Source of the DNA: a virus
Virus record (IMG/VR): IMGVR_UViG_3300048135_000262
Coordinates: 1 to 25,258 of that record
Reading direction: 5' to 3' (one strand)
DNA length: 25,258 nt
Shown: positions 1,371 through 23,356 of the stretch, piece after piece
Position numbering within the stretch: the first letter of the stretch is position 1
Layout of the letters: each line of letters opens with the position of its first letter
Made by a program: the position numbers and the translations under genes
The notes under the pieces: model-generated
What the model saw: the letters and a program-made list of their open reading frames with translations, nothing else
Told to the model about the DNA's origin: nothing
The model's database searches: none

Positions 1371-1393
1371 TCTATTATAACACAAATCAACCT
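1371..1393 (-). promoter_or_regulatory. Extended -10 promoter for the 284-aa methyltransferase
   Basis: The minus strand reads GGTTGATTTGTGTTATAATAG: a TG-N-TATAAT extended -10 just upstream of the start at 1349. It repeats the GGTTGAT...TATAATA...GAGTAAA pattern found before the other methyltransferase. It overlaps the 3' end of the 848-aa gene. Confidence 0.6.
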
Positions 1394-3933
1394 AAAAAGA
1401 AATAAGGACTAAATTCATTGCCCATCTTCATTGCTTTACGATAGATTTTTCTCTTTGAGAATTCTTCAAGTTTACCTTTTGACTCAAGTTCTTGAAGCAA
1501 TTTTACATACCTTAATTGTCTTACTTTGTTTCTAATAATAGCTCTAATGTTGACACCTGGTGTTCCACCCATCATCTCATCAGCTTCAGCTTTCTGCTCA
1601 TCAGTAAAATTTAAATCATATGGATTTACATTTCTATCTGTTGATCTTACTGGACTTTCAGGACGAAAATCTTGCATCTTATTATCAACTTCCATAAGCT
1701 TATCAATGAAGCTTGGAATATCTTCAATTCCTTTAGGTAATCTAGTTTTAAGTTTGAAATTACCATCATAATCTTGAACAGATTGGGCTAATTCTTTGAT
1801 TTTATTAACCTCTTCTTCTGTGAATCTTCGTGCTAACTTTGCTTTCTTATTCTCAGAACCATCATTATTCATTTTTGGATCAATACCCAACATATTCTGA
1901 AGTCCACCAAATCTATCAGCGAATGATTCCAGAATTGGATTACCTTCTTCATCCATCATATCATTACCTTCTTCGTCCATTTTACCATATCCCAACATTT
2001 CAGTTACTTCTGGATCTGAAAACCAATCTTGAGGAATTGTACCCGCCTTTGCTCCACTTCCTTTAATTTTGCCTTCAAATTTTGCATTACCAGCAAAATC
2101 AAATGGTGTATTTTTATTTGCATTACCAGAGTGAATGATAGCTGGAATTTCAAAATCTGTATCATATGCATCATCTTTCATTTTCCATGCTAATGTAAAT
2201 GCATCAGTAAGATCTGCAATATTATCCGCATCTGTTCCCCATCTTTGTGAAGCAGAATCTGAATCCGTAATCAAATCCATTGTTGCATCATCAACCTTTT
2301 TATTATCTTCTTCATTACTCACATTACGAGTGAGAGCGTGAACTCCATTCTTACCAGGTTTTTTGAGTGAGATGTTGAATAATTTCTTAGCAATAATAGC
2401 ATCACGTTTGATTTGCGCGACTGCCTTCATCATCTTCTCTTTGTCACCATCCATCTGAAAATCTTCAACTGCATCTTGAAGTTTTTCTTGAATTTCTTCT
2501 GCTGCTCCCTGTGCCATCAAAACAACATCAGTTGGATCGTGGTGTTCAATAAAATTACCACTATCCATTCCCATCATCTCAAGTAATGATTCAGATCCAA
2601 CATTATCAATTAATGCTTTGTTCAAAGAATCGTAAGTGTGATTTCTAGCTTCTTCAGGTATATCAGTCATTCTCATGCCATCATTACCACCATCAGCTTT
2701 TGAAATACTGTAGGTTTCATTTAAATCAAGATGAGGAAGTAATGATTGAACCATTTGTGCAGCTGCAGCTTCCCATTTCTTATTCAAACCACCTTTAGGA
2801 AGATGATCAGAAATGTGATCACTAAATGCTTGCACCTGTTCACGATATTCTTCAGGAATATCCTTTTCCTTCTTTCCAACATATTGTAGGATATCTGTAT
2901 TGTAATCACCATTCAATACAGAGTATAATCCTTGCATGAATGCTGTTTCACCTATCAAATCAGTTTCATTTGCACCTTGAGACCATCTTATATCAGCATC
3001 TCTTTCATCTGGTTTTCTCTTTTTTGATCGTGATGTATTTGAAAGTGTTCTGGGTATTGAACTTGGTTCAGATGGAGGTGATGGTTTTGCGATTTGTGGA
3101 AATTCTTCATCCTTTTTGATATCTTTAATCACTTTTGATATTACAGGTTTATTGATTGCTTCTTCACCACCAGCAGCATCAACTGCATCACTCATTCGTT
3201 GTGCTGTAGATTTTTTTTTAGATCCACCACCTTCTTCCTCACCAGGAGGATTTGGACTTACTTGCAATTCACCTCTCATCTGAGCAAATGTCTTTCCTAA
3301 TTTGGGTAATATACCCATCTTATCACGCATTTCAGCATTATCACCAACTCCCTCTGCCATTCCAGGCAGTTCCATGTTTGGACCTTGATCTACAGTTCCA
3401 CCAGAACCAATAGGATTAATACCAGAAGCAGGTGCTGCCTGCATTGGATTGTTTACATTATGAGTTGCATTTATTTGTTGATTTGCATTATACATCCTCA
3501 TCTTAGTCTGATTCATAAACGAATCATAACCAGCAGGTGCTGCTGCAGGAATTGCATCAGGAACTGCACCCTTCTCAAAGGGTGATTCAGGATGAGATGG
3601 TGGTGTGATTGCCAAACCTGTCATTGGATCACTCCAAGTTGGTTTTGCATTCACTAAGTCAGAACCACCTGACCCATCAGATACTGCACCACCACTCATT
3701 CCTCTATTATCATAGAAGACTAGTTCACCATTTACAGTGGCAGCAACCTTCTGTCCAGTCTCTGGATCAATATAACCACCACTACCATCAGATTGTAAAC
3801 CTAGTTGTCTTGCTCTCTCAGCAGGAGAAGAACCAACAGCAGGATTACCAGTATCTAATGCTTCTTTTACAAAGTTACCAAGAAACTTAGGCTTCTCTTG
3901 CTCTCCTCTACTCCAGTTACTCCAGCGCGACAT
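1387..3933 (-). CDS. Large late virion-type protein of unknown function (848 aa)
   Basis: I do not recognise a catalytic domain. The protein is hydrophilic, rich in Met, Asp, Lys and Gly, with a long Pro/Gly/Ser-rich low-complexity region (about residues 80-320) and a more ordered C-terminal half. Residues about 41-76 hold a small module (RQLGLQSDGSGGYIDPETG followed by a TVNGELVFYD-like strand). The same module recurs near the N-terminus of the 741-aa protein (MGLQYKGFGYWADPQTG then TVNDQLVPV). A T4-type late promoter (3952-3958) and the ribosome binding site AAAAGGG lie immediately upstream, which points to a virion component or an internal protein made late. It ends next to the methyltransferase promoter. 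An internal head or tail-associated role is inferred from promoter class and neighbours only. Confidence 0.85.
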   Translation of the reverse strand: MSRWSNWSRGEQEKPKFLGNFVKEALDTGNPAVGSSPAERARQLGLQSDGSGGYIDPETGQKVAATVNGELVFYDNRGMSGGAVSDGSGGSDLVNAKPTWSDPMTGLAITPPSHPESPFEKGAVPDAIPAAAPAGYDSFMNQTKMRMYNANQQINATHNVNNPMQAAPASGINPIGSGGTVDQGPNMELPGMAEGVGDNAEMRDKMGILPKLGKTFAQMRGELQVSPNPPGEEEGGGSKKKSTAQRMSDAVDAAGGEEAINKPVISKVIKDIKKDEEFPQIAKPSPPSEPSSIPRTLSNTSRSKKRKPDERDADIRWSQGANETDLIGETAFMQGLYSVLNGDYNTDILQYVGKKEKDIPEEYREQVQAFSDHISDHLPKGGLNKKWEAAAAQMVQSLLPHLDLNETYSISKADGGNDGMRMTDIPEEARNHTYDSLNKALIDNVGSESLLEMMGMDSGNFIEHHDPTDVVLMAQGAAEEIQEKLQDAVEDFQMDGDKEKMMKAVAQIKRDAIIAKKLFNISLKKPGKNGVHALTRNVSNEEDNKKVDDATMDLITDSDSASQRWGTDADNIADLTDAFTLAWKMKDDAYDTDFEIPAIIHSGNANKNTPFDFAGNAKFEGKIKGSGAKAGTIPQDWFSDPEVTEMLGYGKMDEEGNDMMDEEGNPILESFADRFGGLQNMLGIDPKMNNDGSENKKAKLARRFTEEEVNKIKELAQSVQDYDGNFKLKTRLPKGIEDIPSFIDKLMEVDNKMQDFRPESPVRSTDRNVNPYDLNFTDEQKAEADEMMGGTPGVNIRAIIRNKVRQLRYVKLLQELESKGKLEEFSKRKIYRKAMKMGNEFSPYFFLG

Positions 3934-3959: not shown

Positions 3960-4193
3960 TCAGATGTAAGCGGCAGCAATCTTAGCGTTCTTAGAGACAT
4001 CACCATCTTTAGCAAGTTTGAATGCTTTCTCAAGCAACTCATTTGCTGCTTCCTTATCTGTCTTACGCAACTGCTTATACTCACCCATCATGGTAATGTA
4101 CTTCTTATCATCAGCACCTTCACCATCTTTGACAGTGTGAGCTTTCTTCTTCTCATCTTTCTTCTCAGAGAGGAAGTTGTTTAGATCTTTCAT
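3960..4193 (-). CDS. Small charged protein of unknown function (77 aa)
   Basis: This is a Lys/Glu/Asp-rich soluble protein (MKDLNNFLSEKKDEKKKAH at the start) with a predicted helical C-terminal half and no recognised domain. The start is supported by TTAGGAGTATCC directly before the ATG. A sigma70-like promoter with TTGACC, a 17-base spacer and TACAAT lies at 4216-4244, so it may be expressed separately from the late proteins around it. It sits between two large virion-type genes. The charge pattern would fit a chaperone-like or scaffold-type small protein, but nothing in the sequence proves that. Confidence 0.75.
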   Translation of the reverse strand: MKDLNNFLSEKKDEKKKAHTVKDGEGADDKKYITMMGEYKQLRKTDKEAANELLEKAFKLAKDGDVSKNAKIAAAYI

Positions 4194-4215: not shown

Positions 4216-4244
4216 ATTGTATCATAGTTAGTCATCAGGGTCAA
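4216..4244 (-). promoter_or_regulatory. Sigma70-like promoter before the 77-aa gene
   Basis: The minus strand has TTGACC (4244-4239), exactly 17 bases, then TACAAT (4221-4216), and the ATG follows at 4193. It overlaps the 3' end of the 741-aa coding region. Confidence 0.5.
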
Positions 4245-6453
4245 TACCCATTGCTTTACGAATCTTGCCTGATGCTCCTGTACCTATCTGTCCTTTACCT
4301 CTCATTCTATTGATAAGACTATCAACTCTACTTCTATTGCCCATCAAACCACCAGGTGTAGGTTCTTCTCTTGCTGCATCTTCAGGATACTCTGTATCCC
4401 ACAACCCATCATAGAGTTCAGCAAGTCTTTCTTTTACAAAATCACCATCTCCTAGGTTAGGAAATACACTTGTAATCTTCTCTAATTCTTCCCTATCCAT
4501 TCTGATATTACCACCCATCACACTGGAGAGAACTGATAAAGCGTTGTCATATCCTTCTTCATCATCCATATCACCTTCAAAAGAATCCATTATTCTCTCT
4601 TCAAATGCTGATCTTCTCTCAGTGATTCTATCCATAATCTCCTGAGGTAGGTTAGAACCTGAAACTTGATGAGCAAGTTGATAGTCATTACCTTCTTCAA
4701 AGTCTAGTCCACCCAATGCTTCCATAAGAGCAGAGGTAGGATTATCATCAGCAAGTCCTAAGTCAAGGATTGAAACCTCACCTGTCTCAGGATCCACCAT
4801 GATGTTACCACCATGCATATCATTGTGAGAGAAACCTGCCTTATGGAGTTCACCTCTTGCTTCCCAGAAACTCTTCAATGCTTTCTCTTGGATGTCAGGA
4901 GTCAAATCATTCCATACACTTGCAAGTTGTTCACCACCAGCAACACTCATTGCGTACTTACCCCAAGCACCAGGGAATCTCTTATCCCATGTTTGTGCTG
5001 TCTTAGGATCAAAGTAGTTTCCATCTGCACCCCTTCTCATGTTTGAGTTGTCACCAGGATTATTATAAGCAGCAGATTGATTGATGAAAGGTCCATCAAA
5101 TCTTGCATTGATAAGAGTAGGAAAGTGAGGATTATCTTTCATTGCATACAGAGCTGCAAGTTCACCAGGTCCAATGTTTCCTGTCTTCACACCCACACCA
5201 TCATCACCTAATGTGAATGAACCAAAAGCACCTGAGGCAAGTGGACTTCTATCATCATACTGATCCAAATCAAAATCTGCATCCTGTACCAGTTCTCTTG
5301 CTGATGCATTGAGTCCTAATACATTCTCTTCATCAGTATCTTGAACCTTAGGAGTTCCTCCACCTAACCAACTTGGTGGTTCTGGTGAATCATCATCATA
5401 AGGGTACGAATCGTATCTAGAATCTTGATTTATCTTTCCATCAGAATCACGGTATTCATTGCTGCCAGTTCCACCTGCTAAATCCTGATCCTTCATCCAT
5501 TTCAGACCTCTCTGATAGGCACCAGGACTTTGTGTATCCTTCTTTCTTCTAGCATTGAGTGCTCTAATAATTTGCCTGTCAAGAGGAAATTCTGGTTCAA
5601 TACCTTTGTCAAATAAATCATCTGCTATCTTCTTAGCAGGTGCCTTTCTTTGTTTATCTTTATTATTTTTATTTAATCTTTTTGCTCTATCTGCTTTTTG
5701 TTGTGTGTTTAGAGGTACAAAATCACTACCAAGTCCTTGATCATCTTCAGTTGATGAAGATGAAGTAGGTGGTGTAACACCAGCATTGTTAGCAACTCTC
5801 TTAAGATAACTTTTCAGCCATGCTGAACCTCTACCTTGTGCAAACATTACATCATTTTTTGTTTCAGTACCTGGATTAGAGTTGTTGCCGTCAGCAAAAT
5901 CTCTCACATTCTTAATGTGTTGCTTTCTATCTCTATTGAACTCTGCTTCACTAATCCACTGCCGCATCTCACCCAGTTCCATGGCATTATCGCCATCTGG
6001 ACCTGCTGTCCATCTTGCTGAGTTAGTTTTACCAACAAACATGTCTTGAGGTAGTTCCTCAGTTGGCTGTCCATCAACACAAGTATCGCCATCAGGACCT
6101 GCTTCCCAACCTTTCTTCTCAGTAGGTCTTTGTGCTTGTCCCATTGCAGGTCCAATGTTCTCACCAGAACCTACAGGTGGCGCTACTGGTGCGCCAGCAG
6201 CTGCACCACCTGGTACTGCCATCTGTCCACCAGCACCTGATTTAGTAGGTCCTTCATCTTCTCCATCACCCTTATACAACTCAGATTCAACATCACCTTC
6301 TACAGGCACCAGTTGATCGTTTACAGTCTTATATTTTGCTTCACCAGTCTGTGGATCTGCCCAGTATCCAAACCCTTTATACTGTAAGCCCATTGCTACA
6401 GCATCTCTATGAGCCTTCTCTCCTTTACGTTCTAGAAACTGTTGTAGTCTCAT
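4228..6453 (-). CDS. Virion-type protein with a protein-kinase-like catalytic core (741 aa)
   Basis: The N-terminal 55 residues carry the module shared with the 848-aa protein (MGLQYKGFGYWADPQTG). Residues about 60-400 are low-complexity, with the repeat AGPDGD at 118-123 and 150-155. Residues about 405-590 hold a kinase-fold core: a glycine-rich loop SGAFGSF (407-413), VGVK with Lys423, a candidate helix-C Glu431, the catalytic loop SHNDMHGGNIMV with His543, Asp545 and Asn550, and the metal-binding ILDLG with Asp564. The HxDxxxxN spacing resembles RIO/ABC1 and aminoglycoside-kinase families more than eukaryotic-type HRD kinases. All residues normally needed for phosphotransfer are present. 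The gene overlaps the 88-aa gene by ATGA and would share its late promoter. It may be a kinase packaged in the virion, in the way T4 Alt is, but that is inference. Confidence 0.8.
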   Translation of the reverse strand: MRLQQFLERKGEKAHRDAVAMGLQYKGFGYWADPQTGEAKYKTVNDQLVPVEGDVESELYKGDGEDEGPTKSGAGGQMAVPGGAAAGAPVAPPVGSGENIGPAMGQAQRPTEKKGWEAGPDGDTCVDGQPTEELPQDMFVGKTNSARWTAGPDGDNAMELGEMRQWISEAEFNRDRKQHIKNVRDFADGNNSNPGTETKNDVMFAQGRGSAWLKSYLKRVANNAGVTPPTSSSSTEDDQGLGSDFVPLNTQQKADRAKRLNKNNKDKQRKAPAKKIADDLFDKGIEPEFPLDRQIIRALNARRKKDTQSPGAYQRGLKWMKDQDLAGGTGSNEYRDSDGKINQDSRYDSYPYDDDSPEPPSWLGGGTPKVQDTDEENVLGLNASARELVQDADFDLDQYDDRSPLASGAFGSFTLGDDGVGVKTGNIGPGELAALYAMKDNPHFPTLINARFDGPFINQSAAYNNPGDNSNMRRGADGNYFDPKTAQTWDKRFPGAWGKYAMSVAGGEQLASVWNDLTPDIQEKALKSFWEARGELHKAGFSHNDMHGGNIMVDPETGEVSILDLGLADDNPTSALMEALGGLDFEEGNDYQLAHQVSGSNLPQEIMDRITERRSAFEERIMDSFEGDMDDEEGYDNALSVLSSVMGGNIRMDREELEKITSVFPNLGDGDFVKERLAELYDGLWDTEYPEDAAREEPTPGGLMGNRSRVDSLINRMRGKGQIGTGASGKIRKAMGIDPDD

Positions 6454-6716
6454 TCGCCATCACCAGAATCGTTATTACCTTGCTCCTCATAAGCATAAGG
6501 TGCACCATTCTGTCCATGTGAACCTAACACATTATAACCAGGTCCATTATCAGGCTTTCTGTCTTTACTATTATGTGCACCTACATCATCCTTAGCGGAT
6601 TTAGGGACGCACATCATTTGTTTCTTATCCCACCTGTAACCATTTGGGCAGGAGGGTTTATCATTCACTGTGAAAGGTGACTCTACAAGAGACTCTAACC
6701 ACTCGCTATAGTTCAT
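6450..6716 (-). CDS. Small late protein with CPNGYRWD...CVPK motif (88 aa)
   Basis: The N-terminal half contains a compact two-cysteine element, CPNGYRWDKKQMMCVPKS (about residues 23-40), typical of short Cys-bounded modules in marine T4-like virion proteins. The C-terminal half is Gly/Asn/Asp-rich and probably disordered. The gene has its own late promoter (6735-6741), and its stop overlaps the start of the 741-aa kinase-like gene (ATGA), so the two are likely translated together. A head-associated or accessory structural role is an inference from the promoter and the motif. No enzymatic domain is visible. Confidence 0.8.
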   Translation of the reverse strand: MNYSEWLESLVESPFTVNDKPSCPNGYRWDKKQMMCVPKSAKDDVGAHNSKDRKPDNGPGYNVLGSHGQNGAPYAYEEQGNNDSGDGE

Positions 6717-6734: not shown

Positions 6735-6741
6735 TATTTAT
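6735..6741 (-). promoter_or_regulatory. T4-type late promoter (ATAAATA) for the 88-aa/741-aa pair
   Basis: The minus strand reads GGTAATAAATAAAAGAAAGCG, 19 bases or so before the ATG at 6716. The box overlaps the stop of the 397-aa gene. Confidence 0.65.
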
Positions 6742-7934
6742 TACCAAGTTTTAGGTACAGTAAAATTCAAACGTGAGAACTCTAGTCTATCAATGAGTTT
6801 TACTGCTGACTTACCTGAAATTGCAACGAATCCTTCGGGGGTGGTGACTTCATAATCACCAGAGGATGTAGCAACAAAGAGATTGAGTCTTGAAATCTTC
6901 TTCATCTTATCTACAAGAATGTTCTTTGCAACTGCCAGATTCATGTAGGTTGCAATCAACATCTTGAATTGATTTTGCATCTTCTGATAGTTGTCAAGAT
7001 GTTCAAGTAACTCTGCCATCTTCCTATCTTGAGACTTCTGAGTCTTTAACTTGTCAATCTGTTTCTTATACTCTTTCTCAAGATGTTTGGAGAAATCTGT
7101 GTATGCTTTCTCAACTGATGGTATTGACTGTCCTGCCTTCACATAGTTGTTGAAGAACTTCTTGAACTCAGTATCAATCTGTAACGTCCTCTTACCAGAT
7201 TGAATAAAGTCAAGTACTCCTTTTGTTTGCTTTGCTGAACCTTCTGCCTTGTTCACTGCTGCATTGTATTTCTGAAGTTCACCTGAAGTAAAACTTGCTG
7301 CATTACCAATGTTCTTGAACTCTGCTTTCTGGATCCATACACCATTACTTGCTTTGAAATCACTATCTTTCACATTGAAACTTGATGTCATTGTAGGTAA
7401 TGAATCACCATTGTATTTGGTGTGAAATACAATACCAAGTTGAGCAGCAGAAATCTCTCTCTCCATCTTGCTTCCTACCTTTGCTGCGTAGGTGATGGTG
7501 TTAGGGCGGAAGGTTGTGTACCTCTCACCCTGAATTGTCTCTGTCTTCTTATCATCAGTGAACATCAAGTCACCTTGTAGAACTCCTTTGATTCCACACT
7601 CTTTGAGTAGATTATAAGAAGCAATCAACTTCTGTGCAAGAGCTCCACTGTATAGCTTATTAACATCTTCTACTGATTTACAAATCTTAGGATCGTTCTT
7701 ATTGAATACTGACTTAGTACCAACAAAGAATTTCCCATCTGCTGGATCAATACCACACACAACTGCGGGTGCACCATCCCACTTGGTGGTGACAGAGACA
7801 CCAGCACCAGTATCTCCTGAGAGCATCTTACCCATCTCTCTCAAGATGCTGATTGCTTGTTGAGCACCAGCAGTTCCCTTATTGATGATCTCATCCTCAA
7901 TATGTTCGAGATGTGTGTTCTTACCAGCAGCCAT
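6741..7934 (-). CDS. KxDG ligase/nucleotidyltransferase-like protein (397 aa)
   Basis: Residues 51-54 are KWDG in the context VTTKWDGAPAVV, the nucleotide-accepting lysine motif (motif I) of ATP-dependent DNA/RNA ligases and capping enzymes. Downstream there are plausible counterparts of motif III (VLQGDLMF, 118-125), a basic IIIa-like stretch, and motif IV (LGIVFHTKYNG, 166-176). Residues about 230-350 are Lys-rich and coiled-coil-like. I recall proteins like this as conserved hypotheticals of marine T4-like phages (a DUF6267-type family), without assigned activity. The motif pattern suggests covalent AMP transfer to a lysine, with RNA or DNA end sealing as one possible role. It starts at the ATG after GGGAG, behind a TATAAT promoter at 7959-7964. 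Confidence 0.75.
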   Translation of the reverse strand: MAAGKNTHLEHIEDEIINKGTAGAQQAISILREMGKMLSGDTGAGVSVTTKWDGAPAVVCGIDPADGKFFVGTKSVFNKNDPKICKSVEDVNKLYSGALAQKLIASYNLLKECGIKGVLQGDLMFTDDKKTETIQGERYTTFRPNTITYAAKVGSKMEREISAAQLGIVFHTKYNGDSLPTMTSSFNVKDSDFKASNGVWIQKAEFKNIGNAASFTSGELQKYNAAVNKAEGSAKQTKGVLDFIQSGKRTLQIDTEFKKFFNNYVKAGQSIPSVEKAYTDFSKHLEKEYKKQIDKLKTQKSQDRKMAELLEHLDNYQKMQNQFKMLIATYMNLAVAKNILVDKMKKISRLNLFVATSSGDYEVTTPEGFVAISGKSAVKLIDRLEFSRLNFTVPKTW

Positions 7935-12052: not shown

Positions 12053-12210
12053 GGGTTGCAGCAGAGAGTAATAAGTTCGTAGTTGTTGAGGGATTCAAGA
12101 TGTTTGCGATATTCATCTGGATCCCAATCTGGGTTGCCTTCACAATCAACCTGTACAGATTCGTCAATGATTTCTTTTCTCCTTTCTTTTGTAAGAAAAT
12201 AATTTATCAT
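12049..12210 (-). CDS. Small conserved gene between polymerase and uvsX (53 aa)
   Basis: The start at 12210 reads MINYFLTKERRKEIIDESVQ and the stop is at 12049. Its ATG overlaps the polymerase stop (ATGA), and its own stop overlaps the uvsX start (ATGA), so gp43B, this gene and uvsX form a continuous translational relay. The protein is charged and helical, with an acidic middle (GNPDWDPDEY) and a C-terminal CC pair. No domain is recognised. The position between polymerase and recombinase suggests a replication or recombination accessory, but that is inference. Confidence 0.85.
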   Translation of the reverse strand: MINYFLTKERRKEIIDESVQVDCEGNPDWDPDEYRKHLESLNNYELITLCCNP

Positions 12211-13370
12211 GTGAAAAAATCAAATAGGGTTGCGGTTTTTTCTGATTGCCATCCAATGGTATCCAGAATAACCTGGAGTGGATCAATGAATGACTTTTGA
12301 AACATTGTATCATAATCCAAGAACTTATGTAAATCAAACTCAGGTGGTAATTCAGTAATGAATGACATAATGTTACCACCAGTTGGATTAGGAACTCTGA
12401 GGAAGACGAATCTAATCTTCTCACCATCTTGAATGATGTTGTACTTATTAGTCAGTTGATTCTGTCTCAGGAGGTGGTTGAACATGATACAACCTCTGAT
12501 GTGAATGGGACATCCTTTCTTATACAGAGTAGAGACATCCATAAACTTAGAGATGTTATTACCTGTTCTTGGAAAGGCAATTACTTCAGGTGGTAGAGAT
12601 TCAAACTCCTTACGTTTAGAAGCAACATACTCAATGAGTTCCTCCTCTGTACCTTCCATAATAATCTTGAGAGACTCTTTGATGTAAGCACGACAAGGCT
12701 TAGGTGTTGAGGACTTGACAGCCTCAATACCCATCATCTTGAGCTTAGGTTCCTCATACCTAACACCCTCATTGTCCCATACATTCAGGATGTATCGCTT
12801 CTTAGCAGTCCAGATACCACGTTCAGCAATACACTCTCGCTTCATCACGAGAGTCTCTTCATAACAGTTCAGGTAGTCAGAGAGCTCTTTGTATGACTCA
12901 TCAATGAATGGTTCAATCTTATCCTGACAGAACTTGTTTAGAATGTCGACAGTTCTTTCGCTTGGTAAGCTACCGTTGGATGCAGCCCTATCCACAAGAC
13001 TCCCAAGATTAAGGTAGATACTATCAGTATCCGAAGCAACAACATAATCTGTATCCTTAGTACCCAACATCTTATTTACATACTCATTGAGCTTACGTTC
13101 AATCCAACGAATAGCAACCTGTCCTGTACATGTGATAGCCTCAGCATTCTCAAGACGATAGTGCCTGAAGTAGTTGTTACCAATTGCTCCATACAACGAA
13201 TTCAAACAGATCTTTCGCACCATCTGGAAGTTACTGAACTTAGTTACATCCTTCACAGTCTGAGCATGAAGTTCTAGTAGTTGTTCATTAGAGAGGTGAG
13301 ATAAGTCTTTACCTGACTTTACAATCTCTTCTTGTGCTTCTTCACCAGCACCACCGATTAAATATCCCAC
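12207..13370 (-). CDS. 43: DNA polymerase gp43, C-terminal cistron (43B: fingers, palm motif C, thumb)
   Basis: Begins at a GTG at 13370 and encodes 387 residues with family B motif B KICLNSLYGAIGN (about 53-65) and motif C SDTDSIY (113-119, catalytic Asp114 and Asp116). A thumb domain follows. The last residues, TATLFDFFT, match the sliding-clamp-binding tail of T4 gp43. The GTG shares its first G with the TAG stop of 43A (TAGTG), and GAGG lies 9 bases upstream, so it is a plausible re-initiation site. Together with 43A all polymerase motifs are present with T4-like spacing, so nothing appears lost at the split. It must assemble with 43A to be active. Confidence 0.92.
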   Translation of the reverse strand: MGYLIGGAGEEAQEEIVKSGKDLSHLSNEQLLELHAQTVKDVTKFSNFQMVRKICLNSLYGAIGNNYFRHYRLENAEAITCTGQVAIRWIERKLNEYVNKMLGTKDTDYVVASDTDSIYLNLGSLVDRAASNGSLPSERTVDILNKFCQDKIEPFIDESYKELSDYLNCYEETLVMKRECIAERGIWTAKKRYILNVWDNEGVRYEEPKLKMMGIEAVKSSTPKPCRAYIKESLKIIMEGTEEELIEYVASKRKEFESLPPEVIAFPRTGNNISKFMDVSTLYKKGCPIHIRGCIMFNHLLRQNQLTNKYNIIQDGEKIRFVFLRVPNPTGGNIMSFITELPPEFDLHKFLDYDTMFQKSFIDPLQVILDTIGWQSEKTATLFDFFT

Positions 13371-14836
13371 TAGTTAATACCTCTCTTCTTCATCTCAGAT
13401 TCCACATCAACTAACAACTGTTTATATTGTAGCATACGTTTCTTATAACCTACACGTTCTTCATACATCTTGATGACTAACTCAGGCATCATACCAGTCA
13501 TAGTCTTATCATACAGGGCACCATTAGCTGCTACAGCATAATCACCAGGTGGATTGACTGTCTCTTTCTTATCAATCAATTTAAGATGATTCACATCAAC
13601 ATGTTTGTTGGGAATCAATGTCTCTGGTGATACATTAAGAAATCTAATGAGTGAAGGATACAGTGAGTTCAAGTCAAAGGATACAATCCAATCATAAGCA
13701 CCTGGTTTAGGTTCTTTAACATAAGCACCAATAAATTGATCTGGTTTCTCATTGCTCTTCATCAATGGAAGGACAATGTTCTGTTTCTTCAGGTAATTAT
13801 AGATGATGATGTCCCATAGTCTTACCTGTGCAAATGTATCAGTGTAGTTACACTTGGCATCATACGCCATCAACATCACCAAGTCAATGAGTTTCATCTT
13901 CTCTTCTAACCTGTCAACCAGATCCACGTCAACTAGGTTGTAATCAACGAACTTCTGCCAGTTGCCATCATAGAACTCTTTGAAGGTAGCAAACTCAGAG
14001 TGATCAAGTTTCTTCTGTCCTAACTCAACCTCAGCAATGTAATCAAGGCGATAAGATTCTTGGTTGGTATAGGTAAACTTCTTATAGATGTCAAGGTAGT
14101 CAAGAACTGAGACACCAGCAATGTCATAAGTCTGTTGCTTTCTACCAAACACCTCTACCAACTTCTCACTCACCATTCTCCAAGGTGAGATGTCTCTCAT
14201 TTGATTCAAACCTAGGACATTACGTACACGATTGACAATGAATGGGATGTCAAACATGTTCACATTCCAACCTGTAATCACTTCAGGTCCAACATCTTGC
14301 CACCATGCAAGGAATGTCTTCAATAGAATGATTTCATCTTCACAATAGATGTACTCTACATCATCACGTGTAGGTGTATAAGGACGTGATCCAAAGGTAA
14401 TCAGTCTCTTAGTATTAAAATTCTTGAGTGTGATGAGTAGGATTTCTTCTGTTGCTTCTTCAGGTTTAGGAAATCCATTCTCTGATGATGTCTCAATATC
14501 TAGAGACCAGAGTTTAATCTTATCAATGTCATAGTTGATGTCTTCTGGATACTGTTCCGAGATGAACTGATACAGATATCTTTCAAATCCATACACCTTG
14601 GTGCCTGAGACATTGGAGTAGTCTTCAATGAATTGACGACACTCCTTCATTGAACCAGGTTGAATAGGTGACACAGAAACACCATCCAAGGTTTTAAACT
14701 TAGATGGTTTTTTAGACTGCAAAAAGAGGGTGGGTTGAAAACGGGTTTTCTCCATAAAGGATCCGCCCTTTTGATCATCCCAACCTCTCAGGAGTATTTC
14801 ATTGCCGTACAAACGAGCGAAGGTATAGAAACGAAT
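13370..14836 (-). CDS. 43: DNA polymerase gp43, N-terminal cistron (43A: exonuclease and palm motif A), ATT start
   Basis: The first 488 residues of a T4-type family B polymerase. With the ATT start the Exo I motif WSLDIETS has Asp113 and Glu115, nearly the same positions as Asp112 and Glu114 of T4 gp43. Exo II is GWNVNMFDIPF (Asp about 196), Exo III YNLVDVD (about 299-305), and palm motif A SFDLNSLYPS (catalytic Asp about 388). The frame ends at TAG just before the fingers. The start choice: a TTG at 14812 has no ribosome binding site, whereas ATT at 14836 has AGGAG seven bases upstream and restores the expected N-terminus RFYTFARLYGNEILLRGWD. No ATG is available in frame. Confidence 0.92.
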   Translation of the reverse strand: MRFYTFARLYGNEILLRGWDDQKGGSFMEKTRFQPTLFLQSKKPSKFKTLDGVSVSPIQPGSMKECRQFIEDYSNVSGTKVYGFERYLYQFISEQYPEDINYDIDKIKLWSLDIETSSENGFPKPEEATEEILLITLKNFNTKRLITFGSRPYTPTRDDVEYIYCEDEIILLKTFLAWWQDVGPEVITGWNVNMFDIPFIVNRVRNVLGLNQMRDISPWRMVSEKLVEVFGRKQQTYDIAGVSVLDYLDIYKKFTYTNQESYRLDYIAEVELGQKKLDHSEFATFKEFYDGNWQKFVDYNLVDVDLVDRLEEKMKLIDLVMLMAYDAKCNYTDTFAQVRLWDIIIYNYLKKQNIVLPLMKSNEKPDQFIGAYVKEPKPGAYDWIVSFDLNSLYPSLIRFLNVSPETLIPNKHVDVNHLKLIDKKETVNPPGDYAVAANGALYDKTMTGMMPELVIKMYEERVGYKKRMLQYKQLLVDVESEMKKRGIN

Positions 14837-14876: not shown

Positions 14877-15356
14877 ATGTATTCTATCTATCTCATACAT
14901 TGTATCACAACTGGTAAGAAATATGTAGGGCAAACCAAAGGAAAGGTTGAGAATAGGGTACAACAACATTTCAACAAGAATACACCTACTCACTCACGTA
15001 GCCCACGCTTGTATCAAGCAATGGAGAAGTATGGTAGAGAGAACTTCATTTGGGGTTTAGTAGAGCAGTGTGATGAGAGCTTAGCAAATGAGAGAGAATG
15101 CGATATAATAAGAGAATACGCTACATTTTCTCACGGATACAACTCTACTATTGGTGGTTCTACATTCAAAAAGCACTCACCTGAGACTAAAGCAAAGATG
15201 AGTGCTACTTGGAAATCAAAAGGTACTTCAAACCGTAAAGGTAAGAAGAATAGTGAGGAAAGTAATGCAAAAAGAAGGGCGACAATGCTTGCCAGAAAGG
15301 AGGCAGGACTTTATTGTGGTCGCCCTAAAGGTTCAATACCTTGGAATAAGAAATAA
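14877..15356 (+). CDS. GIY-YIG homing endonuclease with NUMOD3-type motifs (159 aa)
   Basis: The only plus-strand gene. The N-terminal GIY-YIG domain starts YSIYLIHC (SIY at 3-5) and continues KKYVGQTKG (YVG at 16-18), with catalytic Arg27 in ENRVQQHF and a Glu in the NERECD region (about 71-76). The C-terminal part has two short DNA-binding repeats of the NUMOD3 type: HSPETKAKMSATWK and then NSEESNAKRRATMLARK. This is the Seg/Mob-like free-standing endonuclease layout, which spreads by cutting relatives that lack it. It is inserted between the 62/72-aa gene and the split DNA polymerase. Its GIY-YIG domain looks intact, so it is probably active. Confidence 0.93.
   Translation: MYSIYLIHCITTGKKYVGQTKGKVENRVQQHFNKNTPTHSRSPRLYQAMEKYGRENFIWGLVEQCDESLANERECDIIREYATFSHGYNSTIGGSTFKKHSPETKAKMSATWKSKGTSNRKGKKNSEESNAKRRATMLARKEAGLYCGRPKGSIPWNKK
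14877..15356 (+). mobile_element. Free-standing homing endonuclease insertion
   Basis: A self-contained opposite-strand gene breaks an otherwise continuous minus-strand gene order. It ends 3 bases from the next gene's stop, and its late box overlaps the polymerase SD. No intron or intein boundaries are visible, so it is a free-standing (Seg/Mob-like) element. Confidence 0.7.
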
Positions 15357-17901: not shown

Positions 17902-18588
17902 TCATTTTCTTTTGGCTCTTTCTGATTCTTTTAAATTAAGAGCTGAATCCAATATGTGCTTAGGCACAAGGGCCTTTGATTGGCCACCTTTGTGAATAAC
18001 ACGAATTGATGAGATTCCAATAGCGTGACCGTCTTTAAGAATTTTATGGTTTAATTCAACATCACTATTCCAGTGCTCAAATCCTTCAGATTCATTCAAT
18101 GTTCCATATTCCTTGAATACTTCACTCTCTATCATCATAAAGAAGAATGCAATAGGTGCGTAACGCTTTCTAAACTTAAGACCAAACTTATCTGTACTTC
18201 TGGCTGATAGTAATCTGATGTCTTTATTAGCCTCAAATTCACTAACCATCACATCAAGCCAATCTTTTCTACGAACAATGGTGTCACTGTTCATCATGAT
18301 AAAGTACTTAGATGTTACATGAGAGAATCCATGATTGACTGTGCCGCTGAAATATTTCCTCTCAGTGTTTCTAACAAACTTAACATCAGGATATTCATCA
18401 CCAAAGTATTCTTCAAGAGAACCCTGTGATGTTGACATATCATCAACAACAATAATGTTCCCAAATGTATTGGGATTGTACTTTTTTGTTTTAACAACAG
18501 AGTCAATGCAAGCTCTTAGAGTTTCATACAACTCGTGGCAAGGGATGACTATATCTACTTTAGGCATGATTGAATTTACTAAGGACAT
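17902..18588 (-). CDS. Glycosyltransferase family 2
   Basis: 228 residues with a GT-A fold: PKVDIVIPCHELYETLRACI at the N-terminus, the nucleotide-binding IIVVDDMST (Asp49, Asp50) and the DxD-equivalent FIMMNSDTIV (Asn100, Asp102). An acceptor-side EGFEHWNSDVELNHK segment at about 163-177 is expected to hold the catalytic acid. It would move a sugar from a nucleotide-sugar to an acceptor. It starts 10 bases inside the end of the 564-aa adhesin-like gene (a second ATG at 18567 would also fit), so it is co-expressed late with it. Glycosylation of that protein or of another virion surface protein is an attractive inference; modification of host glycans is the alternative. It ends in a basic Lys/Arg tail. 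Confidence 0.92.
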   Translation of the reverse strand: MSLVNSIMPKVDIVIPCHELYETLRACIDSVVKTKKYNPNTFGNIIVVDDMSTSQGSLEEYFGDEYPDVKFVRNTERKYFSGTVNHGFSHVTSKYFIMMNSDTIVRRKDWLDVMVSEFEANKDIRLLSARSTDKFGLKFRKRYAPIAFFFMMIESEVFKEYGTLNESEGFEHWNSDVELNHKILKDGHAIGISSIRVIHKGGQSKALVPKHILDSALNLKESERAKRK

Positions 18589-20273
18589 GGTGGATACTCA
18601 CCAAATATTGGTTGTGTACCATAAGTATCCCAACCTGCTGCATTTTCATCATTGACGCTAGGAACACCAGGAATATACAATGTACCAAAATTTGTAGCAG
18701 TGAAGCCTCCAAATGTATTAAACATGTTTTTTACATTTGTTGCCATTGTGAAGTCAAACGTATCTGCAACTGATTCTGAAGTAAAGCTCATACAATAATC
18801 GAACATACTCTCAAAACTAGTTATTGTTGATGTGTCTGTTAATGGACCAAAATCCCAATCAGCGGTTGAACCTTCAAGGGCATTCTTCATGCTTTCATCA
18901 TCCCACAATATAACAAATTCATCTCCAACTTCACCCTGTATAAAATCACCATAAGTTAATAAATTTCCATCCATATCAAGAACATGAAGTTTTTTAGATT
19001 TTCCACTGTATGTATAAAAATACAACGCACCAGATTGTGTGATCTTTATATGAAGAATTGCTCTATCCTGATCCCAACGATCACATATTTTCCAAGTTTC
19101 CCAAGCTGGTTTACCAGGCTCACCTTTTCCCCATTTTGGTTGTTTACTAAACCCTGACCAACCTGATGCACCATCCGCATCACTTGTTAATAGGGGCATG
19201 TAAATTTCATCAGCATTACTTTCAATCTCACCACCACCAAAATTATCCAACATATACTTAACATTTGTTGCATTATTGAAATTAAACGTTTCAGCAATTG
19301 TTGTTGTAGTGAGATTCATACAATAATCAAACATACTCTCAAAAGTTTTGATGCCAGATGTGTCTGTTAATGGACCAAAATCCCAATTTCCTGATGAACT
19401 TTCAAATAAAGCTTTGGCTTCATCATTAGAACCAGTAATTATAACAACATAATCTTGGTTATCATCAGGAATTTCTATCATACCTTCATCTGAAGGTAAT
19501 GGAGCTCCAGTCATATCATAAACTGTACCCCTTCCCATATAACTATGTGAGATAGATGTAGTGCCAGTTCTGTTAATAAGATGAAAAATCCTACCCTTTG
19601 CGTTTGCTCTTTCCCAGGGCTTCAGATTGTCACAAGCTGTGATTGAACCATAAACTGGAGCACTACCCAATACTGGAGTAGTTTTATCTGACCAATCATA
19701 CCATGAATCACGGTCATTACTGATTTCATTATGCATTGGAATATTCAACTTATTTAATTCAGTTGAAGTCCAACTAGAACCAGCGGATGTAATCATATCG
19801 TATGTGTTATTAGCATTACAAAGACTAAAATAATCAATTAAAGTAGTTGATGTAAAATCATAGCAATAACTAAACACCGAATCAAAATTTTCTACCATAC
19901 TGGTGTCTGTTAATGGTCCAAAGTCCCAATCATGTCCATCCCAGTTGTATCCAAAGAAACTGTTAAGACTCTTACCACTTGCAAGAAGTATGAACTCCTC
20001 TCCAGTCTCAGATGGAATATTACGTGTTAATCCAAGATACTCACCATCTGGATAAGTGAAAGCATGACATGTACCCACACTTAAGTCAGCTGTGGTTCCT
20101 CTGATGTTCAATATATGAAGAATAGGTCCTCTTGTCCAACAATCCCAAGGCATGTTTCCAGCACTTGAACTGAGTAGTTTCTTGAATTGTTGACCTGTAA
20201 CGTTGTATGTCTTACCATCTTCAGCTGTACAGACAAATAAGTCATCTTCTAATATATTTGTGATCCAGCTCAT
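18579..20273 (-). CDS. Modular adhesin-like late protein with three lead-domain/DUF285-like units (564 aa)
   Basis: The N-terminal 35 residues (DLFVCTAEDGKTYNV) resemble the short strand modules of marine T4-like tail proteins. Three tandem units follow, at about 41-200, 218-380 and 390-560. Each opens with a 60-80 residue lead domain (PW...R.iLHI), then a near-invariant WDFGPLTDTS and SMFDYC, then one degenerate DUF285-like repeat, and units end in a GW...QPxxG cap. The WDFGxxTDTS block is shared with the 760-aa protein, so the two belong to one system. A late promoter and SD AAAAGGG precede it, and the GT2 gene overlaps its end. A tail-fibre or other surface adhesin is the best reading; no enzyme motif is seen. 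Confidence 0.82.
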   Translation of the reverse strand: MSWITNILEDDLFVCTAEDGKTYNVTGQQFKKLLSSSAGNMPWDCWTRGPILHILNIRGTTADLSVGTCHAFTYPDGEYLGLTRNIPSETGEEFILLASGKSLNSFFGYNWDGHDWDFGPLTDTSMVENFDSVFSYCYDFTSTTLIDYFSLCNANNTYDMITSAGSSWTSTELNKLNIPMHNEISNDRDSWYDWSDKTTPVLGSAPVYGSITACDNLKPWERANAKGRIFHLINRTGTTSISHSYMGRGTVYDMTGAPLPSDEGMIEIPDDNQDYVVIITGSNDEAKALFESSSGNWDFGPLTDTSGIKTFESMFDYCMNLTTTTIAETFNFNNATNVKYMLDNFGGGEIESNADEIYMPLLTSDADGASGWSGFSKQPKWGKGEPGKPAWETWKICDRWDQDRAILHIKITQSGALYFYTYSGKSKKLHVLDMDGNLLTYGDFIQGEVGDEFVILWDDESMKNALEGSTADWDFGPLTDTSTITSFESMFDYCMSFTSESVADTFDFTMATNVKNMFNTFGGFTATNFGTLYIPGVPSVNDENAAGWDTYGTQPIFGEYPPCP

Positions 20274-21073: not shown

Positions 21074-23356
21074 TTAAGGAGGACATGTGCCCCATTTAGG
21101 TTTAGGTTTAGTCCAGGCATCTGCATCTTCAGAAAAGTAACTTGGTTCCCAACCAATTTCAATTACACACCAACCAGACAGGTTTTGGTTGAAGCTTTCG
21201 GCTTCGAAGAACATATAATCCATATCCTCCACCTTCGCCGTATCCCAATTACTGATGTCTTGGTTGAACTTCTTGGTGCCGCCACCAAACAGATAACGCA
21301 TATTCGTCACATTTGACGTATCCCAACTACCGATGTCTTGGTTAAACTTGGTGGCGCGGGCAAACATCTGTTCCATATTCTCCGCCTTCGAAGTAGTCCA
21401 ATTACCGATGTTTTGGTCGAAGGATATGGCGGAGGAGAACATCATTGAAAAACTAGTCACATTCGACGTATCCCATCTACCAATGTTTTTGTTGAAGGAG
21501 CTGGCATCCTTGAACATAGAGGTCATTGTCACCACCTTCGACGTATCCCAGTTACCAATGTCTTGGTTGAAGGCATCGGCATTATAGAACATATTTGACA
21601 TATTCTCCACCTTCGAAGTAGTCCAATTACCGATGTCTTGGTTGAAGGCAGAGGCTTTATAGAATGTATTACGCATATTCGTCACATTTGACGTATCCCA
21701 TTTACCAATGTCTTGGTTGAAGTCTTTGGCCTCGGCGAACATATAACTCGTATTCTCCACCTTCGACGTATTCAAATTACCGATGTTTTGGTTGAAGGCA
21801 TCGGCTTTGTTGAACATATAACTCATATCCGTCACATTTGACGTATCCCAGTTACCGCCAAATGTTCCATTAAAGGATTGCAACAGGTAGAACATTTTAT
21901 GCATCGTCGTCACACTTGACGTATCAGTATGTTCTCCAAATTCCCATCTGGCCCCTTTTCTGGTAGATCCATCGTAACTGTTACTACCAGAAAATAGTCC
22001 CTCCGCCCAGCCGCTGGTTACGAAAACTACTTCCTCACCAGGATTAAAGCCATAAATTTCACCTAAATCAGTTCCATCAACTTTCCAAGCTTGATACGGT
22101 CCACCATAGAAATTTATTTGATTAGATGCACCCTTAACATGCCAGATGCCACCATCATGTCCTTCCCATGGCAGAGGACAAAGATCTCCCTCCGGTGGGC
22201 AATGACCCCAGCAAGGTTTATCTTCAGTCCATGAAGTTGCGCCAGTGGCAAAATTAACAGGCTCATCTGGAATTAATTTTACACACCAATCACGGAGGTC
22301 TTTGTTGAATGATGTTGCACCACGAAACATACCATCCATCGTGTCACACCCCGACACATCCCAACCGCTGATGTCTTGGTCGAAAGCTTTAGCATCCATA
22401 AACATGTCGCTCATTCCATACACGTGCGATACGTCCCAACCGCTGATGTCTTGGTTGAAAGCTTCAGCACCACTGAACATTGTATCCAAACTGTATGCTG
22501 ACGTTATTTTCCAGCCACCAATGGGTTGGTTGAAATCTTTAGCGTCCCAGAACATCCCAGATATACTCGACACATTACTAACATCCCAACCACTAATGTC
22601 CTGGTTGAATGGCGAGTTTGTGAACATATTGTTCATATATTCCACGTTTGACACGTTCCACTTACCAATGGGTTGGTTGAAGGCGCGGGCATCGGTAAAC
22701 AAGTTTTCCATATCCTCCACCTTCGACACGTCCCAGTCACCAATGGGTTGGTTGAAATTATGGACGCTGGACAGCATTGCATACATCTCCGTCACATTTG
22801 ACGTGTCCCAATGACCAATGGGTTGGTCAAAGACTTCCGCTGACCAAAACATCTCAGACATATTCGTCACATTTGACGTGTCCCAGTTACCACCTAATTT
22901 ACCATTAAATACATAACAATTATTAAACAGTTTGCGGAAACTTGTAACTTTACTGGTGTCAGTATATTTACCAAAATCCCAATTGGCATCTACTTGGCTA
23001 TAAAAGCAATTAAGCGGGTCAGGGTCAGTTACAAAGACAACTTCTTCACCAGGCTGAATAGTCGAGATTTCTCTTTCATTGGTACCATCAACATCCCAAG
23101 CTTTGTAAGGGCTATTACCATAAATGTCCATTAGATTGGTTACATTCTCAATGTGCCAAATACCACCATTATGTCCTTCCCATGGCATCGGTGGCAATTC
23201 TACTTCCAACTTATAAACAGCACCACCACGCTGAAGAGTAAACAAATCACCAGTTTCACATTTAGTTTCTAAATCGGAGCCTAAAATTTTAAAATTTTCC
23301 TCTCCTCTGCGTATAACAAACCAGGAGGTTAGTAATCTTTCATCAATATTAGACAT
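21074..23356 (-). CDS. Large adhesin-like late protein with two DUF285/PARCEL-type repeat arrays (760 aa)
   Basis: Residues 10-53 hold two short strand modules (TSWFVIRRGEENFKI; GDLFTLQRGGAVYKL). Two large units follow. Each has a lead domain (about 57-155 and 395-500) with PWEGHxGGIWH, a KVDGT strand, PGEEVVFVT and WxFGxxTDTS, then a tandem array of 25-residue repeats (about 157-357 and 502-730). Each repeat reads like FNQDIGNWDTSNVTNMxxMF. Each array closes with a WCV...W...WGxCPP cap. These repeats are the DUF285/BspA-like class, known in Mycoplasma and others as PARCEL-encoded adhesion proteins. The late promoter and the position suggest a tail-fibre or surface adhesin. Array 1 uses mainly DQPIGxWDVS forms; array 2 alternates SNVT and SKVE forms. 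Confidence 0.88.
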   Translation of the reverse strand: MSNIDERLLTSWFVIRRGEENFKILGSDLETKCETGDLFTLQRGGAVYKLEVELPPMPWEGHNGGIWHIENVTNLMDIYGNSPYKAWDVDGTNEREISTIQPGEEVVFVTDPDPLNCFYSQVDANWDFGKYTDTSKVTSFRKLFNNCYVFNGKLGGNWDTSNVTNMSEMFWSAEVFDQPIGHWDTSNVTEMYAMLSSVHNFNQPIGDWDVSKVEDMENLFTDARAFNQPIGKWNVSNVEYMNNMFTNSPFNQDISGWDVSNVSSISGMFWDAKDFNQPIGGWKITSAYSLDTMFSGAEAFNQDISGWDVSHVYGMSDMFMDAKAFDQDISGWDVSGCDTMDGMFRGATSFNKDLRDWCVKLIPDEPVNFATGATSWTEDKPCWGHCPPEGDLCPLPWEGHDGGIWHVKGASNQINFYGGPYQAWKVDGTDLGEIYGFNPGEEVVFVTSGWAEGLFSGSNSYDGSTRKGARWEFGEHTDTSSVTTMHKMFYLLQSFNGTFGGNWDTSNVTDMSYMFNKADAFNQNIGNLNTSKVENTSYMFAEAKDFNQDIGKWDTSNVTNMRNTFYKASAFNQDIGNWTTSKVENMSNMFYNADAFNQDIGNWDTSKVVTMTSMFKDASSFNKNIGRWDTSNVTSFSMMFSSAISFDQNIGNWTTSKAENMEQMFARATKFNQDIGSWDTSNVTNMRYLFGGGTKKFNQDISNWDTAKVEDMDYMFFEAESFNQNLSGWCVIEIGWEPSYFSEDADAWTKPKPKWGTCPP
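21167..21853 (-). repeat. Coding tandem repeat array 2 (75-bp units, PARCEL-like)
   Basis: Nine units of 75 bases (one of 78), each giving FNQDIGxWDTSxVxxMxxMF. Neighbouring units tend to alternate DTSNVTNM and TTSKVENM, so a 150-bp higher-order period is visible. The nucleotide units are much more alike than codon degeneracy requires, which suggests recent duplication or gene conversion. Confidence 0.85.
22286..22888 (-). repeat. Coding tandem repeat array 1 (75-bp units, PARCEL-like)
   Basis: About eight units of 75 bases (one shorter), encoding FNQPIGxWDVSxVxxMxxMF and related forms. They are more diverged than array 2, with exchanges such as KITSAYSLDTMF and SGCDTMDGMF. The array ends at the first WCV cap. 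Confidence 0.82.

Follow-up and report, generated by a model that had tools for sequence, protein, structure and literature searches.

IPII and IPIII of phage T4 both start with MKTYQEFIAE. According to a review of T4 head assembly, the first ten residues of IPIII are enough for packaging; residues 4 and 7 of this leader matter most for targeting, residues 8 and 10 for processing, and the T4 prohead protease cleaves after L/I-x-E. T4 Alt, an ADP-ribosyltransferase, is ejected together with the DNA. The virion proteomes of cyanophages repeatedly hold non-structural enzymes, and the authors of two studies left it undecided whether these are cargo or contaminants. In the T4-like cluster C, to which S-CREM2, S-CRM01, S-N03, S-H34, and S-B68 belong (PMC10665884), the S-CREM2 kinase ORF14 was identified by mass spectrometry of CsCl-purified virions with 21 unique peptides, alongside ORF12, ORF15, and, by one peptide, ORF13; the same paper cites a report of the kinase in S-CRM01 virions and lists APH-like, RIO-like, and ChoK-like kinases of the non-T4 cyanophage S-CBWM1 as reported in virions (PMC10665884). 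A further group of kinase domains occurs in polyvalent proteins, which are thought to be injected; there, the C-lobe is lost and an insert separates His from Asp (PMC5512222).

The window analysed here, the whole stretch of 25,258 nucleotides from IMG/VR record IMGVR_UViG_3300048135_000262, encodes a 741-residue protein (Table 1) that is homologous over most of its length to S-CREM2 ORF14 (APH/ChoK-like; 40% identity) and S-CRM01 g130 (serine/threonine kinase PKN8; 35% identity). Gene order and catalytic set are the same as in these two phages, whereas the N-terminal leader of the window kinase is shorter. The protein is known as a family; what is new is a likely packaging route, read from the sequences, through the leader and a shared module.

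Table 1. Features of the kinase locus, with positions counted from the first nucleotide of the window
Feature	Position	Strand	Basis or remark
848-aa protein with internal leader-like LGNFVKE and shared module	1387..3933	-	positional counterpart of S-CREM2 ORF12
77-aa protein, start MKDLNNFLSE (strict leader match)	3960..4193	-	position and leader as S-CREM2 ORF13
741-aa virion-type kinase ORF	4228..6453	-	homologue of S-CREM2 ORF14 and S-CRM01 g130
Kinase-like catalytic domain, N-lobe and C-lobe, residues 395-681	4411..5271	-	AlphaFold model and 41-sequence alignment
Metal-binding DLG, residues 564-566	4756..4764	-	Asp564 and Gly566 invariant
Catalytic loop HNDMHGGN, residues 543-550	4804..4827	-	sequence and alignment
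Glu431	5161..5163	-	invariant 41/41
Lys423	5185..5187	-	invariant 41/41
Glycine-rich loop SGAFGSF, residues 407-413	5215..5235	-	
Low-complexity linker, little conserved, residues 53-394	5272..6297	-	alignment
GFGYW module, residues 9-52	6298..6429	-	common to virion cytidylyltransferase/NMNAT and phrog_3561 proteins
Residues 1-8, MRLQQFLE, short variant of T4-type capsid-targeting leader	6430..6453	-	alignment with L005, L017, S-CREM2, and T4 IPIII
88-aa ORF overlapping the kinase start	6450..6716	-	position of S-CREM2 ORF15, a virion protein
ATAAATA, late-promoter-like	6735..6741	-	19-25 nt upstream of the kinase operon's first gene

Family and gene neighbourhood

A tblastn search matched 12 of 50,697 phage records, all of them Synechococcus phages and including S-CREM2, S-CRM01, S-N03, S-H34, and S-B68. 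Among phage isolates, the family is confined to cluster-C T4-like cyanophages, and the existing annotation of several homologues is serine/threonine or APH-like kinase. We take the window to come from a virus of marine cyanobacteria with a Synechococcus-like host. The relatives keep the same gene order, in which a small gene precedes the kinase and a gene of 74-79 aa and usually a large protein follow it; in S-CRM01, the short g128 and a cytidyltransferase come after the third gene of the cassette. The window genes at 1387, 3960, 4228, and 6450 are the counterparts of S-CREM2 ORF12, 13, 14, and 15, respectively.

S-CREM2 ORF12 (L074:7704-10313), a virion protein belonging to phrog_3561, is annotated as Cas9. 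This looks like a misannotation: searches of four libraries (Pfam, NCBIfam, PADLOC, and PHROGs) gave the protein neither a nuclease nor a Cas match, and with the Cas9 identity unsupported, a nuclease reading of the 848-aa neighbour in the window was rejected as well. The gene at L003:5494-7716 is identical to the window kinase gene over residues 1-380 and carries 91 nucleotide differences beyond them, a pattern that points either to recombination inside the gene or to an assembly chimera. Elsewhere in the window, positions 6741-7934 encode a DUF6267 protein whose phrog_455 also covers cytidylyltransferase, suggesting DUF6267-cytidylyltransferase fusions in other phages. A DNA polymerase is split over two abutting ORFs (12207-14812 and 14877-15356), and just past its upstream half, on the opposite strand, lies an ORF that by eye resembles a GIY-YIG endonuclease.

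Late expression of the kinase had been claimed in the preliminary description, and a late-promoter-like ATAAATA is indeed found upstream of its operon (Table 1). The window contains seven ATAAATA sites, all on the minus strand; as 23 of 100 shuffles have at least as many, the count by itself does not exceed chance. Five of the seven, this one included, precede the start of a minus-strand ORF by ~19-26 nt, a distance at which the late promoters of T4-like phages are expected. Late-promoter-like sites also stand just upstream of two proteins, at 18579-20273 and 21074-23356, in which repeated motifs of the BspA-like type were recognized by eye.

The kinase-like domain

The preliminary description placed a complete kinase-like catalytic core at positions 4684-5241, which correspond to residues 405-590 of the 741-aa ORF. 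SGAFGSF, Lys423, Glu431, HNDMHGGN, and Asp564 within ILDLG lie exactly where it had located them, and the Gly-rich loop, Lys, Glu, HxD(x4)N, and DxG follow one another in kinase order. In an alignment of the window protein with 40 relatives from viral contigs, with identity down to 16-27%, every one of the 41 sequences carries Lys423, Glu431, His543, Asn544, Asp545, His547, Asn550, Asp564, and Gly566. The invariance of the catalytic loop arises partly by selection, because the patterns used to find the relatives contained that loop; Lys423, Glu431, and Asp564 lie outside these patterns. The set of phosphotransfer residues (Lys423, Glu431, His543, Asp545, Asn550, and Asp564) is thus complete as first described, with chance ruled out, and no homologue among the 41 has lost Lys423, Asp545, or Asp564. 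The kinase core of two near relatives shows a dN/dS of 0.30, indicating purifying selection.

In Pfam, the C-terminal part of the window protein matches Pkinase (1.2e-5), APH (4.5e-5), and ABC1 (8e-4). Taken alone, the protein scores 25.3 for Pkinase, below the gathering score of 31.7, and for APH 23.8 when cropped and 22.5 as the whole protein, against a gathering score of 23.2; since the Pkinase score is sub-gathering and the APH score barely above when cropped, we regard the protein as a divergent kinase. A profile of the 41-sequence alignment matched 898 PDB sequences at E ≤ 0.01, and the best 60 of these 898 are essentially all kinases. The AlphaFold2 model of residues 356-741 (mean pLDDT 80, core > 90) predicts a bilobal kinase, with three strands, helix C, two strands, a long helix E, the catalytic loop, DLG, and a helical C-lobe in this order. 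Five more confident helices extend the domain to about residue 681; its start and its motifs stand as originally proposed, but its end at about residue 590-600 does not. Of the 480 Foldseek matches in the PDB at E ≤ 0.001, counted irrespective of type, the top ones are protein kinases with CK2 alpha first (E 8.5e-6); the global TM-scores against solved kinases are low (0.3-0.4), which likewise marks the kinase as divergent. Judged by alignment and predicted structure, the ORF carries a divergent, atypical protein-kinase-like domain.

It is conceivable, though on balance unlikely, that the packaged enzyme is a small-molecule phosphotransferase of the aminoglycoside- or choline-kinase type and not a protein kinase. 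Typical Ser/Thr kinases have a Lys in the catalytic loop (HRDxKxxN), the position of which is occupied by His547 in the window protein. HNDMHGGN resembles the loop of APH and ABC1 more than that of Ser/Thr kinases, APH alone among Pfam families has its threshold passed, and this by the cropped protein, and the S-CREM2 authors label their kinase APH/ChoK-like (PMC10665884). However, Pkinase is matched by 41/41 family sequences at E ≤ 1e-3 and APH by only 23, and both the profile and the Foldseek matches are led by protein kinases.

In the viral Foldseek library, the best matches are S-H34 and an 821-residue protein, the length of S-CRM01 g130, followed by the APH-, RIO-, and ChoK-like kinases of S-CBWM1 (271-318 aa; E 1.9e-7 to 3.2e-6). 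Relatives with HND[ML]HxxN include L027 and L036 with a MuF head domain (in L027 together with a zeta-toxin-like domain), L058 with a portal-family match, and L070 with a tape-measure-family match; these are consistent with the kinase domain having been recruited repeatedly to virion proteins. The polyvalent-protein kinases resemble the window kinase in being kinase domains of phages that sit in presumably injected proteins (PMC5512222), but membership of this group was ruled out, as the window kinase has C-lobe helices after DLG and a contiguous HND.

N-terminal leader and GFGYW module

The kinase homologues start with VKRFDAFLTE (S-CREM2), MISFDQFLSE (S-CRM01), MKSFSTYIAE (L005), and MKRFNNFLAE (L017), and that of S-B68 with MKRLGRLLAE if the start is the ATG one codon into the annotated gene. 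T4 IPII and IPIII, which unlike the cyanophage protein are not kinases, share with these kinases a ten-residue leader that ends in [IL]xE and is hydrophobic at residues 4 and 7. We used a strict T4-derived pattern, applied at residue 1, with hydrophobic residues at 4, 7, and 8 and Glu at 10; it was picked after the kinase N-termini had been seen, and its positions come from published T4 mutagenesis. The kinases of S-CREM2, S-CRM01, L005, and L017 match it, as does that of S-B68 from the ATG one codon in; the leader of the window kinase is two residues shorter and fails it. The prohead protease is predicted to cut the window kinase after Glu8.

In S-CREM2, the strict pattern is found in 6 of 219 proteins: the SAM lyase, ORF13, the kinase, ORF136, the cytidylyltransferase, and one 55-aa protein undetected in the virion. 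Five of the six are virion-detected (Fisher p = 0.003; 0.011 without the kinase), 2000 within-protein shuffles gave a mean of 0.30 matches and a maximum of 3, and the pattern at other offsets gave at most two matches each. Five of the 297 S-CRM01 proteins match, including the kinase, g129, the cytidylyltransferase, and g33, compared to a shuffle mean of 0.45 and a maximum of 5. A looser leader pattern showed no separation of virion from other proteins in S-CREM2 (4/52 versus 4/167, p = 0.09), and for that reason only the strict register was used.

The virion-found SAM lyase of S-CREM2 (ORF6, L074:3837-5081) starts with MKDFDSFLEE, a strict leader; if packaged, such an enzyme could neutralize the restriction-modification of the host at entry. 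An S-CRM01 protein annotated as acetyltransferase (record 139045; L081:41045-41440, plus strand) starts with MKTFDEFLTE, and this strict match makes it a candidate packaged enzyme. Cyanophage cytidylyltransferase/NMNAT proteins (L081:1847-2704, L084-L090) often start with a T4-type leader.

The GFGYW module, ~45 residues long, directly follows the leader. A profile of five kinases, run against 6,950 ORFs, found it in no more than three families: the kinases; proteins of the ORF12 type, among them S-CRM01 g128 and, weakly, the 848-aa ORF of the window (E 0.003); and the cytidylyltransferases of other cyanophages. Residues 1-58 of the S-RIM14 cytidylyltransferase align with kinase N-termini from residue 1, with a BLASTP E of 2.5e-11 for S-CREM2 and, over the module only, 2.3e-6 for the window kinase, both being pairwise values against a handful of sequences. 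Matches to the same 58 residues occur in 362 phage records, for the most part from cyanophages; one record is reached through the S-B68 kinase (E 4e-5). The NMNAT of S-SCSM1, detected in the virion of that phage, starts with MKSFLQFLKE and continues into the module, and in non-cluster-C cyanophages the cytidylyltransferase/NMNAT leader precedes the same module as in the kinase. The virion NMNAT/cytidylyltransferase of cyanophages is therefore homologous to the kinase over its first ~52 residues (leader and module) and is likewise virion-detected, whereas its catalytic domain differs. None of three module sequences tested reached the Pfam cut-off. Neither a link of cyanophage proteins to T4 capsid targeting nor a reading of leader and module as a joint address was found in the open-access literature searched, and in the passages of the S-CREM2 paper that we consulted we found no mention of a capsid-targeting leader or a shared module (PMC10665884).

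Packaging and proposed role

Packaging of the enzyme, as the preliminary description had suggested, is well supported by the 21 peptides of the S-CREM2 orthologue, the T4-like leader in homologues, and the late-promoter-like ATAAATA, and the window kinase is very probably packed inside the phage particle. We propose a course of events in which we have fair confidence as a whole. A competent atypical kinase would be expressed late in infection, its N-terminal leader of the T4 internal-protein type would take it to the prohead core and would be cut off behind its Glu by the head-maturation protease. The module of ~45 residues beside the leader, common to other cargo, would probably be part of the packaging or release apparatus. 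The kinase would then pass with the DNA into the Synechococcus-like host and phosphorylate a host target before phage gene expression. Leader cleavage, injection, kinase activity, and target are steps that we infer. The likeness to T4 Alt lies in the proposed strategy, a packaged enzyme modifying the host at once; the enzyme classes are unrelated.

The enzyme may modify the host or, as also considered in the preliminary description, act on virion proteins. A role confined to the particle or to its assembly, with virion proteins or the kinase itself as substrate and no action in the next host, seems rather improbable to us. In its favour, the kinase shares its operon with counterparts of other virion proteins, the operon has a late-promoter-like site, and the kinase-like domain also occurs inside head, portal-family, and tape-measure-family proteins. 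However, a T4-type leader marks the T4 internal proteins, some of which are active in the host, and the co-cargo SAM lyase and cytidylyltransferase/NMNAT make more sense in the host cell. The S-CREM2 authors noted that abundant non-virion proteins may co-purify (PMC10665884), and the authors of the S-SCSM1 proteome raised the same possibility of late products adhering to particles. We consider it quite doubtful that the kinase is such an adhering product and no true cargo, given the enrichment of the leader among MS-detected proteins, the peptide count of the S-CREM2 orthologue, and the kinase reported in S-CRM01 virions too. A pseudokinase whose fold is kept as a binding platform would fit the divergence from Pfam kinases, and is very improbable in view of the phosphotransfer residues, all invariant in 41 divergent relatives.

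Beyond the single enzyme, we think it likely that one modular address, the T4-type leader with the GFGYW module, loads the kinase and the NMNAT/cytidylyltransferase into heads, and the leader alone the SAM lyase and perhaps the acetyltransferase, for ejection into cyanobacteria. As the leader matches the T4 capsid-targeting sequence and picks the same enzymes, the cargo-or-contaminant question becomes directly testable. That this kinase type recurs in head, portal-family, and tape-measure-family proteins points to the delivery of a kinase together with the genome as a strategy common among phages, and the shared tag suggests both the entry route of the kinases into the particle and which other proteins travel along. 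The T4 capsid-targeting rule would in this way be extended to cyanophages, and with the leader, candidates for the first-wave effectors of cyanobacterial infection can be listed from sequence. If it is true that one address loads different enzymes, the set of injected proteins would be readable from genome sequence.
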